Assembly: GCA_022841465.1 (NCBI GenBank)
Contig: JALHRL010000025.1
Coordinates: 1 to 55,102, forward strand
Direction of reading: 5' to 3'
Source of the DNA: Bacteroidia bacterium
GTDB taxonomy: Bacteria > Bacteroidota > Bacteroidia > B-17B0 > Aurantibacillaceae
DNA length: 55,102 nucleotides
Part shown: positions 42,369 to 49,543 of the stretch, in pieces
How positions within the stretch are numbered: the first letter of the stretch is position 1
Layout: every line of letters begins with the position of its first letter
Made by a program: the position numbers and the translations under genes
Notes under the pieces: model-generated
The model's input: the letters and a program-made list of their open reading frames with translations, nothing else
Database searches by the model: none
Told to the model about the DNA's origin: nothing

Positions 42369-42397
42369 TTTGTAATTAATAAATTTTAATACATTTG
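42369..42397 (+). promoter_or_regulatory. his operon promoter
   Basis: -33 TTTG (42369-42372), a 17-nt spacer and -7 TACATTTG (42390-42397): both elements match the Bacteroidota consensus exactly. Only 4 nt separate the -7 element from the leader-peptide ATG, so transcription should begin at or next to that ATG. Confidence 0.8.
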
Positions 42398-42401
42398 TAA
42401 C

Positions 42402-42452
42402 ATGAATTTAAAATCACATCATCATCACATTTCTTCAAACGGTAAGTCGTAA
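42402..42452 (+). CDS. hisL: his operon leader peptide with four consecutive His codons
   Basis: 16 codons, MNLKSHHHHISSNGKS, stop TAA at 42450. The four His codons (CAT CAT CAT CAC, 42417-42428) sit directly upstream of two mutually exclusive RNA hairpins and the complete his operon. A ribosome short of His-tRNA would stall here and leave GGTAAGTC (42441-42448) free to form the antiterminator; a ribosome that reaches the stop would cover it. An in-frame stop (42387-42389) and the absence of any other start codon fix the ATG. Confidence 0.88.
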   Translation: MNLKSHHHHISSNGKS

Positions 42453-42485
42453 TGATGTTGTATTAACTATAACTAAAGGCTTACC
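42441..42485 (+). promoter_or_regulatory. his antiterminator stem
   Basis: GGTAAGTC (42441-42448), inside the last codons of hisL, pairs with GGCTTACC (42478-42485): eight pairs with one G-U. The 3' arm is the same segment that forms the 5' arm of the terminator, so the two structures exclude each other. Confidence 0.8.
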
Positions 42486-42502
42486 AATCGGTGAGCCTTT
42501 TT
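42475..42502 (+). terminator. his attenuator terminator
   Basis: AAAGGCTTACC (42475-42485) pairs with GGTGAGCCTTT (42490-42500), 11 pairs with one G-U, 4-nt loop, U run to 42502. It lies 46 nt before the hisG ATG and so controls entry into the operon. Confidence 0.88.
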
Positions 42503-42548
42503 CATTTCTGAACTAGGCTGCTGATTGGAGGCTAAAAACAAAAAAGAA

Positions 42549-43403
42549 ATGAAACTAAAAATTGCAATTCAAAAATCAGGTAGATTAAGTGAAGATTCAC
42601 TTAAGTTATTAAAAGAATGTGGTATTGATTTTAATAACGGTTTAAACAAACTAAAAACGGAGGCCTACAATTTTCCGTTAGAAATTTACTTTTTACGTGA
42701 TGACGATATTCCGCAATACATTGAAGATGGTGTAGCCGATATTGGTATTGTTGGGGAGAATGTTTTGCTGGAAAAAAATAAAAAAGTAAAAACAGTTGAA
42801 AAACTTGGATTTGGTAAATGCCGACTTTCTATCGCAATACCAAAAGATAAGTCCTTTAAATCTATAAAAGACTTAAATGGATTAAAAATTGCAACCTCCT
42901 ACTCTACCATCCTTTCTAAATACTTAAAACAACAAAAAGTAAAGGCAGAAATTCATGAAATTAGTGGCAGTGTTGAAATTGCACCAAGTATAGGATTAGC
43001 GGATGCTATATGCGATTTAGTAAGTTCAGGGAGCACATTGTTAAGCAACGGTTTAAAGGAAGTGGAAGTTATTTTACGTTCAGAAGCAATTTTAATTGCC
43101 ACAAAAAACTTAAGCAAAGAAAAAACTGCTTTGCTTGAAAAATTATTGTTTAGAATTAAAGCTTTACGCAGCGCAAAAAAAAATAAATACATATTATTAA
43201 ATGCACCTAATAATAAACTTGATGCCATATGCAAAATTTTACCCGGCATGAAAAGCCCAACCATTTTACCGCTTGCCGATAAAGGATGGAGCTCCGTACA
43301 TTCTGTTGTTGAAGAAAATCAATTTTGGGAAATAATAGAAAAGCTTAAAGCTAATGGCGCACAAGGAATTTTAGTTGTACCAATTGAAAAAATGATTGTT
43401 TAA
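42549..43403 (+). CDS. hisG: ATP phosphoribosyltransferase, long form
   Basis: 284 aa from ATG 42549; an upstream TTG at 42525 adds 8 Lys-rich residues and is less likely. First step of histidine synthesis: joins ATP and PRPP. Catalytic domains: LKIAIQKSGRLSEDSLKLLKECG, and the PRPP site ADAICDLVSSGSTLLSNGL. The C-terminal ACT-like regulatory domain (KYILLNAPNNKLDAICKILPGMKSPTILPL ... GAQGILVVPIEKM) marks the long form, which is feedback-inhibited by histidine and needs no HisZ. So both allosteric and attenuation control act on this operon. Its stop abuts hisD. Confidence 0.97.
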   Translation: MKLKIAIQKSGRLSEDSLKLLKECGIDFNNGLNKLKTEAYNFPLEIYFLRDDDIPQYIEDGVADIGIVGENVLLEKNKKVKTVEKLGFGKCRLSIAIPKDKSFKSIKDLNGLKIATSYSTILSKYLKQQKVKAEIHEISGSVEIAPSIGLADAICDLVSSGSTLLSNGLKEVEVILRSEAILIATKNLSKEKTALLEKLLFRIKALRSAKKNKYILLNAPNNKLDAICKILPGMKSPTILPLADKGWSSVHSVVEENQFWEIIEKLKANGAQGILVVPIEKMIV

Positions 43404-44678
43404 ATGGAAATTATTAAATATCCCGACAAAAATAGTTGGAAGGAAATACTACAGCGCCCTAGTTTTAGCTTAATAGAACTGGAAAATACGGTAGGCTCTA
43501 TTTTAGAAGATGTAAAAATAAATGGTGATTCAGCTATACAAAAATATGCACTTCAGTTTGATAAAGTAAAACTAAATGAATTTAAAGTTTCCGATAATGA
43601 AATTTTAAATGCTGAAAATTTATTATCTAGTGATTTAAAAAACGCCATTAACATTGCGAAACAAAATATTGAAACCTTTCATATATCACAAAAAGAAGAA
43701 ATCAAAACAATTGAAACAACCAATGGTGTTGTATGCTGGCGAAAATCAATTGGCATTGAAAAAGTAGGTTTATACATCCCCGGTGGTTCCGCTCCGCTCT
43801 TTTCAACTGTATTAATGTTGGGCGTTCCTGCTAAACTAGCCGGTTGCAATGAAATTATTTTATGCACTCCATCTGACGCAAGTGGAAAAGTAAATCCTGC
43901 CATTTTATATGCTGCACAATTAGTTGGCGTAACCCAAGTATACAAAATAGGAGGTGTACAGGCTATAGCTGCAATGGCCTTTGGAACTAAAAGTATTCCT
44001 CAGGTATATAAAATTTTTGGTCCGGGTAACCAATATGTTACCTGCGCCAAACAATTAATTAGTAAAGAAGGAATTGCTATTGACATGCCGGCAGGACCAT
44101 CAGAAGTAGCAGTAATTGCAGACGAAAGTTGTATTCCATCATTTGTTGCTGCAGATCTTTTATCGCAAGCAGAGCATGGTGCCGATAGTCAGGTTATATT
44201 AGTAAGCAATAATTTAAACGTAATTGAAAATGTAAACAAAGAATTAGAAAATCAACTAAAAGTATTAGGCAGAAAAACAATTGCTGAAGCAGCTTTAAAA
44301 AACAGCAAGGCTATTTTAGTTAGTACACTTGAAGAAGGAATACAACTTTTAAATGAATATGCTCCAGAACATTTAATTATTGCTTGCAAAGGTGAAAACC
44401 AATTAGCAGAAAACGTAATTAATGCAGGCTCGGTGTTTTTAGGCAATTACTCTTGCGAAAGCGCAGGTGATTACGCCTCAGGGACTAATCATACATTACC
44501 TACCAATGGTTACGCTAAATCCTACAGCGGTGTTTCTTTAGATAGTTTTGTAAAAAAAATAACTTTTCAGAAATTAAATAAAGAAGGACTAAAAAACATT
44601 GGCAAAACAATTGAACTGATGGCTCAAGCAGAAGGTTTAGATGCACACAAAAACGCAGTAACTATCAGATTAAAATAA
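43404..44678 (+). CDS. hisD: histidinol dehydrogenase
   Basis: 424 aa. It performs the last two oxidations, histidinol to histidine, with NAD and zinc. Motifs GLYIPGGSAPLFSTVLMLGVPA, KIFGPGNQYVTCAKQ, IDMPAGPSEVAVIAD, LLSQAEHGADSQVILVS (zinc and base residues) and SAGDYASGTNHTLPTNGYAKSYSG. Full length. No gap after hisG (TAAATG), 6 bp before hisC. Confidence 0.98.
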   Translation: MEIIKYPDKNSWKEILQRPSFSLIELENTVGSILEDVKINGDSAIQKYALQFDKVKLNEFKVSDNEILNAENLLSSDLKNAINIAKQNIETFHISQKEEIKTIETTNGVVCWRKSIGIEKVGLYIPGGSAPLFSTVLMLGVPAKLAGCNEIILCTPSDASGKVNPAILYAAQLVGVTQVYKIGGVQAIAAMAFGTKSIPQVYKIFGPGNQYVTCAKQLISKEGIAIDMPAGPSEVAVIADESCIPSFVAADLLSQAEHGADSQVILVSNNLNVIENVNKELENQLKVLGRKTIAEAALKNSKAILVSTLEEGIQLLNEYAPEHLIIACKGENQLAENVINAGSVFLGNYSCESAGDYASGTNHTLPTNGYAKSYSGVSLDSFVKKITFQKLNKEGLKNIGKTIELMAQAEGLDAHKNAVTIRLK

Positions 44679-44684
44679 AACAGT

Positions 44685-45740
44685 ATGGAATTTAATTTAG
44701 ATAAAATAACTAGAAACAATATTAAGTCATTACAGGCTTATTCTTCTGCCCGTAGTGAATTTAAAGGGAAAGAGGGAGTTTTTTTAGATGCTAACGAAAA
44801 CGCATATGGTTCACCATTGCAAATTAATTACAACAGATATCCCGACCCACTGCAATTAGACTTAAAAGACAAACTAAGTAAAATAAAAGGTTTGCCTATT
44901 CAAAATATTTTTTTGGGAAACGGAAGTGATGAAGCCATTGATATTTTATTCAGAGCCTTTTGCGAACCGGGTAAAGACAATATTATTATTTGTCCGCCCA
45001 CTTATGGCATGTACGAAGTATCTGCAAATATAAACGATGTAGCGATTAAAAAAGTTCCTTTAACTTCAGAAACGTATCAGTTAAATACAAATGAAATAGT
45101 AAAAGCAATTGACAACAATACAAAGTTAATTTTTATATGTTGCCCTAATAACCCAACAGGTAACGGTGTAAAATGGAACGATATAAAAATGATTCTAGAG
45201 AATTTTTCTGGAATTGTTGTAATAGATGAAGCCTATATTAACTTTGCAAAATACCGAAGTTTAATTCCTGAGTTATTAAATTACCCTAATTTAGTTATTC
45301 TTCAAACCTTATCTAAAGCCTGGGGTTTAGCGGGCATTCGAATAGGAATGGCATTTGCTTCTGAACCAATAATTGATTTATTTAATAAAATAAAACCACC
45401 GTACAATATTAATAGTGTTTCTCAAAAACTTGCAATAGACGCATTAGATAATATCACAAAAGTAAATGATTGGATAAAAGAAACTGTTTCTGAAAGAGAT
45501 ATATTAATGTCAGAAATTGAAAAATTACCATTTATTACAAAAGTGTATCCCAGCGATGCCAACTTCTTTTTGATAAAAACAAGTAACCCTCTTGCCTTAT
45601 ATAATTATCTTTTATCTAATAAAATTATTGTTAGAGATAGAAGTAAAGTAGAATTATGTGAAGGTTGTCTTAGAATAACTGTTGGCACCAAAGATGAAAA
45701 CGTACAATTGTTAAATGCATTAAATAAGTATAGCGCATGA
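44685..45740 (+). CDS. hisC: histidinol-phosphate aminotransferase
   Basis: 351 aa, PLP enzyme. Lys in [17 protein letters not shown] (~210), [22 protein letters not shown], and the phosphate-binding Arg in the C-terminal [13 protein letters not shown]-terminal [12 protein letters not shown] is typical. Its stop overlaps the hisB ATG (ATGA, 45737-45740). Confidence 0.98.
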
Positions 45741-46846
45741 AAAAAGTATTATTTATAGACAGAGACGGAACCTTAATCTGGGAGCCCCCTAACACTTACC
45801 AAATAGATAGTTTTGAGGTTTTAAAATTTATTCCGGGCGCAATAACAAATTTAGGCAAAATAGCTAAGGAATTAGATTACGAATTGGTGATGGTAACAAA
45901 CCAGGATGGTTTAGGAACAGATTCATTTCCTGAAAATACATTTTGGCCTGTGCAAAATTTTATAATTCAAATATTGGAAAACGAAGGAATTACGTTTTCT
46001 GAAATTTTAATCGATAAAAGTTTTGAATCTGAAAATAAACCAACGCGAAAACCAAATACCGGAATGCTAACAAAATATTTGTCGGACAATTACGATTTAA
46101 AAAACTCATTTGTAATTGGAGATCGCTTAACCGATGTGAAATTAGCAATTAACCTGGGGGCAAAAGCTATTTTCCTAAAAAACAATGATGATCCTAAGCA
46201 AATGGAATCATCAATTGATTTAATCACAGATAACTGGGAGAAAATTTATGAATTTTTAAAATTACCGGAAAGAAAAGTAACGCACACTCGAAAAACAAAT
46301 GAAACAGATATTCAAATTGAATTGAATTTGGATGGTACAGGTAAAGCTAACATATCAACCGGATTAAACTTTTTTAATCACATGCTCGATCAAATTGCAC
46401 GTCACGGTAATATCGACTTAAATATTAAAGCAATTGGCGATTTGCACATTGATGAGCACCACACCATTGAAGATACAGGAATTGCTTTAGGCGAGGCATT
46501 TGCTATAGCCATTGGAAATAAAAAGGGAATTGAACGTTATGGTTTTTGTTTGCCAATGGATGATTGTCTTGCACAAGTAGCCATAGATTTTGGTGGGCGT
46601 AATTGGGTAGAATGGAAAGCTGAATTTAAAAGAGAGAAAGTGGGTGATATGCCAACAGAAATGTTCTTTCATTTTTTTAAATCATTTAGCGATTCGGCTA
46701 AGTGTAATTTAAATATAAAAGCCGAAGGCGATAACGAACACCACAAAATTGAAGCGATTTTTAAAGCGTTTGCTAAAGCAATAAAGTTCGCATTAAAAAG
46801 AGACATAAATAATAATGAATTACCAAGTACTAAGGGGGTGTTATGA
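45737..46846 (+). CDS. hisB: bifunctional histidinol-phosphatase / imidazoleglycerol-phosphate dehydratase
   Basis: 369 aa fusion. Residues 1-~165: HAD phosphatase with the nucleophile motif DRDGT (8-12), NQDGLG and [10 protein letters not shown]. Residues ~175-369: IGPD with two metal-binding clusters, [16 protein letters not shown] and [17 protein letters not shown], and [13 protein letters not shown]. This is the same two-domain layout as in enterobacteria. Overlaps hisC and hisH by 4 bp each. Confidence 0.98.
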
Positions 46847-47430
46847 AGGCTGTAGTAATAAAATACAACGCCGGTAACATCACATCTGTTGAATTTGCAT
46901 TCAAACGAATTGGTGTTGATGTGGTGGTGACAGATGATGTAGAAATAATTAAAGCAGCCGATAAAGTGATTTTTCCGGGTGTTGGCGAAGCTTCTTCGGC
47001 AATGTCTTATTTAAAAGATAAAAAACTGGATAAGATTATAAAAGATTTAAAGCAACCGGTATTGGGTATTTGTTTAGGAATGCAATTAATGTGCGATTAT
47101 TCAGAAGAAGGAAATACAAATTGTTTGGGAATATTTTCACAAAAGGTAAATAAGTTTAAATCTACCGACTTTAAAGTACCACAAATTGGATGGAACAACA
47201 TATATGACTTAAAATCTCCCTTACTAAAAAACATAAATGAAAATAGTTATGTTTATTTTGTTCACGGGTATTATGCAGAACTTGGAGAAAACACAATTAG
47301 TAAAACCAACTATATTCTTGAATACAGTTCTGCATTAAATAAAAACAATTTTTACGGAACCCAATTTCATCCCGAAAAATCCGGCGACATTGGTGAACAA
47401 ATTTTAAAGAATTTTATAGGACTTAAATGA
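46843..47430 (+). CDS. hisH: imidazole glycerol phosphate synthase, glutaminase subunit
   Basis: 195 aa class I glutamine amidotransferase. Nucleophile Cys in [17 protein letters not shown] (~77), catalytic His and Glu in [11 protein letters not shown] (~175), and YFVHGYYAE. It releases ammonia to HisF. 4-bp overlaps on both sides. Confidence 0.97.
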
Positions 47431-48167
47431 AAAAGAAATTTGACATAATACCTGCCATTGATTTGATAGATGGAAAATGTGTACGATTATCGCAGGGTGA
47501 TTACGCTAAAAAAACAATTTATAATGAAAATCCCTTAGAGGTTGCCAAACAATTTGAAGATATTGGTATTACCCGTTTACATTTAGTTGATTTAGATGGT
47601 GCAAAAAAAGGAGAAGTTGTGAATTTAAAAGTTTTAGAAGCCATTGCGTCAAAAACAAACCTAGTGATTGATTTTGGTGGTGGAATAAAAACCGAAAATT
47701 CAATTCAATCTGTTATTAATGCAGGAGCAGCAATAGTAACAATAGGCAGCCTTGCTGTAAAACAACCTGAACTTTTCTACTCTTGGATTTTAAAATTTGG
47801 TGCTGATAAAATATTATTAGGCGCAGATGTTAAAGATGAAAACATTACCATTTCAGGTTGGTTAGAAAATACCGATATAAACATATTAGATTTTTTAAGC
47901 CAGAATATTTCTAAAGGTTTAACACAGGCTTTTTGTACCGATGTGAGTAAAGATGGTATGCTAGAAGGTCCTTCGATTGATTTGTATAAAAAAATAATTC
48001 ATCAATTTCCCAATTTAATTTTTATTGCAAGCGGAGGTGTCACCACCATGCAAGATGTAAATCAATTAGAAGAAATATCATGCGGTGGTGTAATTATTGG
48101 AAAAGCTATTTATGAAGGCCGAATATCTATGAACGAATTAAAAGATTATATAAAAGATGTTGGCTAA
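47427..48167 (+). CDS. hisA: ProFAR isomerase
   Basis: 246 aa (beta/alpha)8 barrel. General base Asp in [20 protein letters not shown] (Asp11), partner Asp in [15 protein letters not shown], and phosphate loops FGGGIKT and ASGGVTT. The start of hisF lies inside its last codons (11-bp overlap). Confidence 0.97.
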
Positions 48168-48927
48168 ACGAATCATCCCCTGCTTGGATATCAAAGATGG
48201 CAGAACAGTAAAGGGTATAAACTTCGAGAACATACGTGATGCCGGCGACCCTGTTGAATTAGCCATACGTTATTGTAAGGAAGGCGCCGATGAGTTGGTT
48301 TTTTTGGATATTACCGCTACTAACGAGAAAAGAAAAACATTATCTGAACTTGTAAAAAAAATTGCCTCAAACATTAACATTCCTTTTACCGTAGGAGGAG
48401 GCATCAGCACTATTGAAGATGTTCGAGTTCTTTTAAACTCCGGGGCTGATAAAGTTTCAGTAAATACTTCAGCATTTAAAACCCCCGAATTAATTAAAGA
48501 ATTATCCAATCAGTTCGGTTCACAATGCATTGTTTTAGCAATTGATACCAAATTTGATCTCGATAGCTATCCGGATGGAGAGTGGTTGGTTTATTTAAAC
48601 GGAGGTAAAGTTAAAACAAATAAAAAAGCTTTAGATTGGGCAATAGAGGGTGTAAAACTAGGTGCAGGTGAAATTCTTTTAACCTCCATGAATAACGATG
48701 GAACAAAAAATGGGTTTGCAAATGAAATTACCAAACTAATTTCTGAAAGTGTAAACGTGCCTGTAATTGCAAGTGGTGGTGCAGGATTAATGCAACATTT
48801 TAATGATGCTTTTACAATAGGCCAAGCCGATGCAGCATTAGCCGCCAGCGTATTTCACTATAAAGAAATAGGTATATTTGAGTTAAAAGAATTTTTATAT
48901 AAAAATAATATTCAAGTAAGAATTTGA
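48157..48927 (+). CDS. hisF: imidazole glycerol phosphate synthase, cyclase subunit
   Basis: 256 aa (beta/alpha)8 barrel. Catalytic Asp in [19 protein letters not shown] and the second Asp in [14 protein letters not shown]; phosphate sites VGGGIST and ASGGAG. It works as a dimer with HisH. 16 bp before hisIE. Confidence 0.98.
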
Positions 48928-48943
48928 AATAAAATAATGAATC

Positions 48944-49543
48944 ATGAAATTAGAATTTGATAAATACCAAAACGGTTTAATTCCTGTAATTGTTCAGGAT
49001 GCCTCTACCAATACTGTTTTAATGTTGGGTTTTATGAATGAAGAGGCGCTTAAAAAAACCAAAGAATTAAATAAAGTAACTTTCTTCAGCAGAAGTAAAA
49101 GCAGATTATGGACAAAAGGTGAAGAAAGCGGTAATTTTTTAAAGGTGGTTAGCATTGCAGTCGATTGTGATAACGACACCCTTTTAATTAAAGCCATACC
49201 CGAAGGGCCAGTTTGCCATACAGGAGCAGAAACATGCTTTAATGAAAAAAACACAAGCGATAATTTTTTAGTTACCCTTGAAAATACAATAAAAAGCAGA
49301 ATAAAAAGCCCGGTAGAAGGTTCGTATACAAACTTACTTTTAAATAAAGGAATTAATAAAATTGCACAAAAAGTAGGTGAAGAAGCAGTAGAGCTGGTTA
49401 TTGAATCAAAAGATGATAACGAAAAATTATTTTTAAATGAAGCTGCTGATTTAATGTATCACTACATTCTTCTTATTAACGCAAAAGGGCACAGTCTTAG
49501 TGAAGTGATTGATGTTTTGAAATCGAGGGATGTGAGTAAGTAA
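48944..49543 (+). CDS. hisIE: bifunctional phosphoribosyl-AMP cyclohydrolase / phosphoribosyl-ATP pyrophosphatase
   Basis: 199 aa. HisI part ~1-105: WTKGEESGNFLKVV, DCDNDTLLIKAIPEGPVCHTGAETCF (metal-binding Asp and Cys residues). HisE part ~115-199: KVGEEAVELVIESK and NEAADLMYHYILLINAKG. It catalyses steps 2 and 3 of the pathway. Last gene of the operon; one base separates its stop from that of trmD. Confidence 0.97.
   Translation: MKLEFDKYQNGLIPVIVQDASTNTVLMLGFMNEEALKKTKELNKVTFFSRSKSRLWTKGEESGNFLKVVSIAVDCDNDTLLIKAIPEGPVCHTGAETCFNEKNTSDNFLVTLENTIKSRIKSPVEGSYTNLLLNKGINKIAQKVGEEAVELVIESKDDNEKLFLNEAADLMYHYILLINAKGHSLSEVIDVLKSRDVSK

Follow-up and report, generated by a model that had tools for sequence, protein, structure and literature searches.

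A very probable histidine attenuator with a predicted leaderless leader peptide upstream of hisG in a member of the Bacteroidota

The window analysed here, a stretch of 55,102 nucleotides of Bacteroidota DNA, carries on its plus strand a complete histidine operon, hisGDCBHAF-IE, with a predicted leader attenuator 5' of hisG (Table 1). All elements that a sequence-only reading of this DNA had proposed (promoter, reading frame with four histidine codons, antiterminator and terminator) were found at their places, with coordinates that are right within two bases. The position of the terminator needed a correction, as its 11-bp stem does begin at 42475 and is followed by a T-rich tail, but ends at 42500 and not at 42502. 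The start codon of hisG (ATG, 42549) lies 46 nt past position 42502; the longest open reading frame of this gene begins at a TTG (42525), and the ATG fits the start of the HisG family, with a profile match from residue 3. The protein had been taken for a long-form HisG, and its HisG_C domain bears this out. Feedback inhibition by histidine is established for the long-form family. The gene preceding the operon, which codes for an aminotransferase, is co-directional and ends 37 nt 5' of the promoter.

Table 1. Features of the his leader and operon in the window.
Feature	Coordinates	Strand	Details and basis
Sigma-A type Bacteroidota promoter	42369..42397	+	-33 TTTG 42369-42372, 17 nt, -7 TACATTTG 42390-42397
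Predicted transcription start, the A of the leader AUG (leaderless)	42402	+	4 nt from -7 box to ATG; inferred
Leader peptide ORF MNLKSHHHHISSNGKS, 16 codons	42402..42452	+	ATG 42402, stop TAA 42450-42452; direct reading
Four consecutive His codons CAT CAT CAT CAC (codons 6-9), putative sensing site	42417..42428	+	Direct reading, shuffle test
Hairpin of His codons with region past leader stop (1:2 type)	42416..42461	+	Window MFE; weakly supported
Antiterminator 5' arm GGTAAGTC, within leader codons	42441..42448	+	Truncated-leader folding, 36-leader alignment
Antiterminator 3' arm GGCTTACC, the loop-side part of the terminator 5' arm	42478..42485	+	Truncated-leader folding, 36-leader alignment
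Intrinsic terminator, stem 42475-42485/42490-42500 (11 pairs, 4-nt loop) plus U-rich tail	42475..42508	+	Folding, terminator scan, alignment
hisG, long form, C-terminal HisG_C domain	42549..43403	+	PF08029 6.6e-31, TIGR03455 over cut-off
hisD, hisC, hisB (bifunctional), hisH, hisA, hisF, hisIE	43404..49543	+	Profile matches

The two antiterminator arms form 8 pairs, one of them G-U, and the 5' arm starts 9 nt ahead of the leader stop codon. The minimum free energy (MFE) of the 109-nt leader is -25.9 kcal/mol (z -4.95), a value that none of 200 shuffled sequences equalled. When the 3' arm of the terminator is removed, the MFE structure is the antiterminator, at -13.2 kcal/mol (z -2.02), with 5 of 200 shuffles equally good. 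A third stem of the window MFE, which the sequence-only reading does not name, pairs the histidine codons (42416-42425) with positions 42452-42461 and resembles the classical 1:2 hairpin, though it is poorly kept in the alignment of 36 leaders described below.

A motif of four histidine codons was found in none of 100 shuffles of the window. No excess over shuffled sequence was seen for terminator-like sites in the surrounding 10.5 kb (3, compared with 8.3 in shuffles), nor for the promoter pattern in the window (8 matches, compared with 7.8). Because the promoter and terminator patterns are each non-significant when taken alone, our case is built on their combination and on the relatives of this leader.

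A search for HisG gave a match in 41 of 81 genomes of the window's family and in 252 of 296 genomes of the phylum; titled records contributed 80 loci related to the window's HisG. Among 139 loci, upstream sequence of 150 nt or more was available for 134, of which 118 were distinct, and the addition of 91 further upstream stretches from matches of the two genome searches, less one duplicate, brought the set to 208 distinct regions. This set is a selection, made up of the best-scoring loci of the genome searches and further ones chosen for spread, rather than an even sample of the phylum, and in part of the genomes the start of hisG is only approximately placed.

A region was scored as having a leader when a short ORF within about 350 nt before hisG contained 3 His or more in a stretch of 7 residues. 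Such His-rich ORFs are present in 184 of the 208 regions, whereas 20 dinucleotide shuffles yield 7.75 on average and 13 at most, and the antisense strand 10. Relatedness among the sequences means that these counts are not independent. With the criterion raised to at least 4 His, 160 of 208 regions still have a leader, against a mean of 0.2 (maximum 2) in shuffles and 2 in antisense. The conserved runs of histidine codons that the sequence-only reading had told one to look for upstream of hisG in related genomes are thus kept in the large majority of regions. In the window's own family the leader occurs in 36 of 38 regions, and titled carriers include Chitinophaga tropicalis, Sediminibacterium salmoneum, Niastella caeni, Ferruginibacter paludis and Schleiferia thermophila. 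By the criterion of at least 3 His in 7 residues, 24 of the 208 regions have no His leader. Six of them have titles naming Emticicia, Larkinella, Rhodocytophaga, Spirosomataceae or Cytophagales (L127, L129, L130, L132, L133 and L137); the others are L024, L042, L075, L151, L199, L202, L209-L214, L216, L219, L224 and L226-L228, with L227 and L228 being the sole genomes sampled from family f18.

For the analysis of stems, 183 leaders with an in-frame start were used. A hairpin followed by a T-run is present in 166 of these, and in 152 it is below -8 kcal/mol; an upstream arm that competes for the 5' strand of the terminator, matched by at most 3 of 30 shuffles, was found in 146 of 164 leaders tested. 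From 153 leaders listed, six whose hairpin was judged to be misassigned were dropped (L034, L044, L058, L160, L175, L191), leaving 147 accepted leaders in which the His-rich ORF, the competing arm and the terminator recur jointly.

This recurrence bears on another explanation, namely that the hairpin is the terminator of the upstream transcription unit, accompanied by a spurious short ORF, and that there is no response to histidine. The terminator does lie between two co-directional units. It is, however, located 3' of the promoter and of the ORF with its four histidine codons, and we find it hardly credible that a trio which returns in 147 accepted leaders should have this origin.

The 147 leaders differ in the sequence of the shared strand, with GGCTTACC in 100, ACCCGTTTGA in 29, ACCCCGG in 12 and other sequences in 6. 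In each of these dialects the duplex formed with the leader's own arm is stronger than that formed with arms of other dialects (-11.3 vs -6.3 kcal/mol for GGCTTACC, -9.3 vs -7.1 for ACCCGTTTGA, -8.2 vs -6.4 for ACCCCGG and -9.8 vs -8.2 for the others), so that the shared strand and the arms with which it pairs were exchanged jointly.

Within one dialect the picture is different. An alignment was made of 36 leaders of the GGCTTACC type, the window and 35 relatives that were picked from leaders already in that dialect. The terminator pairs in 96.5% of cells, compared with at most 68.7% when the strands are slid and 94.7% with shuffled columns; for the antiterminator the respective values are 95.5%, at most 52.2% and 94.8%. 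Two-sided changes are few (3 pairs of the terminator, 1 of the antiterminator), and the variation consists mostly of G-U exchange. The stems are thus conserved within the clade yet hardly covary, as is to be expected when one strand must fit two partners. Compensatory change in both stems, also anticipated by the sequence-only reading, is therefore found as matched replacement between clades, but there is little of it within the alignment.

The distances between histidine codons, arm and stop codon were compared among dialects. In the order GGCTTACC, ACCCGTTTGA and ACCCCGG, the median distance from the first His codon to the start of the competing arm is 29, 25 and 33.5 nt. Measured from the first base of the run's last His codon it is 15, 10 and 22 nt, and the median distance from the start of the arm to the stop codon is 10, 14 and 9 nt. 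Both the window and these medians fit a switch operated by a ribosome, to which the spacing is suited: given the usual footprint of a ribosome, the arm would be free when the ribosome stalls at the histidine codons and covered when it stands at the stop codon. The GGCTTACC dialect is not uniform, as the upper quartile of the distance from arm to stop is 26 nt and some arms begin past the stop; since a quarter of the arms of this type thus start at least 26 nt before the stop, cover by a ribosome at that codon misfits part of the leaders. The position of the arm within leader codons would explain why Gly-Lys or Gly-Arg (GGTAAG, GGTAGG) is found near the end of many leader peptides.

Direct support thus comes from the anatomy of the locus, from the conservation of leader, terminator and competing arm, from the matched change of stems between clades and from the spacing. 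On this sequence evidence we regard it as close to certain that the his operon would be subject to ribosome-mediated attenuation. The more specific reading that we favour, and consider probable, is a classical ribosome-mediated his attenuator in which transcription would start at or next to the AUG of the leader, making the leader peptide leaderless.

The start site, the mode of initiation, the ribosome positions and the response to histidine that we infer are as follows. RNA polymerase would use the A of the leader AUG as first nucleotide. A ribosome would take up this 5'-terminal AUG without any Shine-Dalgarno contact. With ample His-tRNA it would reach the stop codon and cover GGTAAGTC, so leaving GGCTTACC free for the 11-bp terminator, and transcription would end at about 42502. 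When His-tRNA is scarce, the ribosome would stall at codons 6-9 with its leading edge about where the arm begins; GGTAAGTC could then pair with GGCTTACC, the terminator would be blocked and hisGDCBHAF-IE would be transcribed.

The proposed start position derives from the distance between promoter and leader. In the window there is a gap of 4 nt between the -7 box and the ATG at 42402, which is the only in-frame ATG, GTG or TTG ahead of the histidine codons. According to two flavobacterial studies, the TAnnTTTG box of F. psychrophilum is located at -12 to -5 (PMC9723704), and 4-5 nt separate this box from the start in probable promoters of F. johnsoniae (PMC6847099). Combined with the 4-nt gap, this published spacing places the AUG at nucleotide +1, so that the leader peptide is predicted to be leaderless; were transcription to begin one base later, the AUG would lose its A. 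The sequence-only reading had held that initiation must differ in this phylum, a claim that can now be sharpened to a predicted AUG at +1. Leaderless mRNAs are rare in Bacteroidota by the figures consulted for three species: they amount to 5.5% in F. psychrophilum (PMC9723704), about 3.7% of 5' UTRs are under 10 nt in B. thetaiotaomicron (PMC7366714), and 5' UTRs of no more than 10 nt make up 13% (by subtraction) in F. johnsoniae (PMC6847099).

Exact matches to TAnnTTTG peak near the starts of his leaders, with 45 ending 6-10 nt before the first ATG, compared with 3 to 16 per 5-nt bin at 50-11 nt; bins still further upstream, where occupied, contain 1 to 2 each. In a matched comparison, where the first ATG and an exact box were used both for the leaders and for a control of 341 ORFs from 455 kb of the genome to which the window belongs, the predicted 5' UTR was at most 7 nt long in 59 of 103 his leaders having a box and in 13 of 68 control genes (p about 7e-7, with relatedness ignored). 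Strict leaderlessness, a predicted 0-1 nt, showed no enrichment in this matched count (13 of 103 his leaders and 6 of 68 controls, p 0.62). A position matrix applied to all start codons gave at most 7 nt in 92 of 151 leaders vs 16 of 69 controls, and 0-1 nt in 31 of 151 vs 5 of 69 (p 0.017), under a rule that is biased to short values for the leaders because any in-frame start is allowed. Strict leaderlessness as a rule for the whole phylum was considered and is rejected by the matched count; it is predicted for certain clades. The window's family has a box in 33 leaders, of which 12 are at 0-1 nt and 23 at no more than 7 nt.

The same attenuator might instead work with an ordinary 5' UTR, because transcription starts further upstream or reads through from the preceding gene, and nothing would then be special at initiation. 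With the end of the co-directional aminotransferase gene so near to the promoter (37 nt), the leader may also be covered by transcripts reading through from that gene; moreover, the promoter pattern occurs at chance frequency in the window, and in some other clades the box lies further upstream, for example at a distance from the ATG of 19 nt in L155, 25 nt in L157 and 19 nt in L181. The concentration of TAnnTTTG just before his leader starts argues against an ordinary 5' UTR, as do six further leaders of the window's family that are likewise at a predicted 0 nt. We therefore think that this alternative is unlikely, though it deserves to be kept in mind, and continue to favour a start at or next to the leader AUG.

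Some relatives have a His leader of another form. Family f24 is represented by 18 loci, 17 of which are in the leader table (L054 was left out; the others are L035, L040, L043, L045-L048, L052, L055, L056, L058, L201, L205, L217, L218, L229 and L230). None of these 17 leaders has an accepted intrinsic terminator, and the only hairpin below -8 kcal/mol (in L058) was rejected. In 14 of the 17 the start codon (GTG or ATG) has a predicted 0 or 1 nt in front of it (+1/+2), with a box score above 7 in ten cases and weaker boxes in four (L045, L047, L058, L218); in L035, L043 and L055 the automatic choice placed the start elsewhere. The last His codon is separated from the stop by a median of one codon, compared with seven in leaders of the terminator type. 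In the spacer to hisG, C makes up 23.4% and G 5.7%, compared with 16.2% C and 17.4% G in the terminator type, and the C-minus-G value of this spacer is reached by a median of 2.3% (0 to 10.6%) of upstream windows from the same loci. Rho is encoded in all 18 f24 genomes searched. These compositional data suggest that attenuation of his in f24 may be Rho-dependent, the loading site being shielded when a ribosome stalls at the last His codons. The tryptophanase leader is a precedent for the shielding of a Rho-type site by a ribosome. Besides full-length Rho, a second and shorter Rho-like match was observed in 18 of 18 f24 genomes (open frames of 403-426 aa), and the shorter frame of one of them (G161) has 2 in-frame stops.

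Leaders without an accepted terminator also occur in two other families. In f9, the leader ends in HHFHHSS at four loci (L033, L034, L059, L152); the leader of L175, likewise without an accepted terminator, ends in HHSS. At all five loci an inverted repeat of the type TTCCTCT-stop-GAGGAA surrounds the stop codon, in a shorter version in L059. In f2, six loci (L170, L174, L176, L178, L182, L194) have His-rich leader ORFs without an accepted intrinsic terminator.

The existence of such leaders in some f24, f9 and f2 relatives might be taken to indicate that the leader controls the translation of hisG, or that it directly binds a protein, a tRNA or a metabolite, and that ribosome-mediated termination is not involved. 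Against this, the position of the arm follows that of the histidine codons, and a comparison with Rfam 15 gave no riboswitch or T-box, either for the window, which has no match at all at the Rfam thresholds, or for the leader with E values up to 1. We consider translational control or direct binding to be very improbable for the window, and retain ribosome-mediated attenuation.

Leaders of a similar kind precede trpE-like genes. A short ORF with TGGTGG was found at 15 of 20 trpE-like loci, all of which are below the NCBIfam cut-off; a few of these 15 ORFs are doubtful as leaders. A box is present in 12 of the 15 leaders, at no more than 7 nt in 9 of these 12 and at 0-1 nt in 4. One of the leaders belongs to the window's own genome (L253, on contig C11, 5' of a trpE-like gene); it encodes a WWW leader peptide, has the box TATATTTG and a predicted 5' UTR of 5 nt, and is followed by a terminator-like hairpin. 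For ilvD, another candidate, a match was obtained in 15 of 60 genomes and none in the window's genome.

The his leader of enterobacteria (RF00514, hisL) likewise has a run of histidine codons in a short ORF and competing antiterminator and terminator stems 5' of hisG. This is the classical mechanism, and the run in E. coli comprises seven His. The window differs from RF00514 in its shorter run of four His, in having no Shine-Dalgarno sequence and in a start that is predicted to be leaderless. The window gave no match to RF00514 with E up to 1, and among 17 relatives scanned two matched, at 36 and 34.4 bits, which is below the gathering score of 49 bits. An assignment of the leader to any Rfam family was rejected, as there are sub-threshold matches only, the best for the window being Phe_leader, which at 25 bits falls short of its gathering score of 55.

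A his attenuator in Bacteroidota is not itself new, having been partly reported before. Bacteroidetes/Chlorobi are reportedly among the groups listed by Vitreschak et al. 2004. A transcriptome study of Flavobacterium (PMC9723704) describes a conserved element 5' of hisG that has no Rfam match and recurs in other genera of the Flavobacteriaceae, along with hints that amino-acid operons are preceded by leader-peptide attenuators. The hisG element is from the same phylum and precedes the same gene as that of the window; the parts of that report consulted here describe no his leader peptide, stems or start geometry. In mycobacteria, leaderless short polycysteine ORFs (Canestrari et al. 2020) control downstream genes through contiguous codons for the sensed residue, according to PMC9031893, and so offer a precedent for attenuator ORFs that are leaderless. 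There the residue is cysteine and leaderless mRNAs are common, in contrast to the 5.5% given above for F. psychrophilum. The Bacteroid-trp RNA (RF01692), listed in PMC2864571 as a predicted cis-regulatory element of Bacteroidetes, resembles the window's leader in being predicted as cis-regulatory in this phylum and belongs to a different operon by name; four trpE-like loci had no Rfam match at the gathering threshold. No printed record of leaderless amino-acid leaders of Bacteroidota was found in the open-access literature, and as far as a search of this literature goes, the start geometry and the terminator-less form of f24 are undescribed.

Attenuation requires that a ribosome is close behind RNA polymerase from the start, and the mRNAs of Bacteroidota are naturally devoid of Shine-Dalgarno sequences. 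If the RNA does begin with the leader AUG, this would be a direct and testable answer to the question of how the first ribosome is loaded in time. As a tentative generalisation, to which we give somewhat less than even chances, the amino-acid attenuators of Bacteroidota may form a class of their own, in which initiation at a leaderless or nearly leaderless 5' end replaces Shine-Dalgarno loading and the spacing from promoter to AUG is part of the switch, with f24 having exchanged the intrinsic terminator for a Rho-type one. The leader, which falls below the Rfam 15 thresholds in the window and in the 17 relatives scanned, could aid the annotation of his regulation in this phylum, and it would provide a natural reporter for leaderless initiation and for the coupling of transcription and translation in Bacteroidota.
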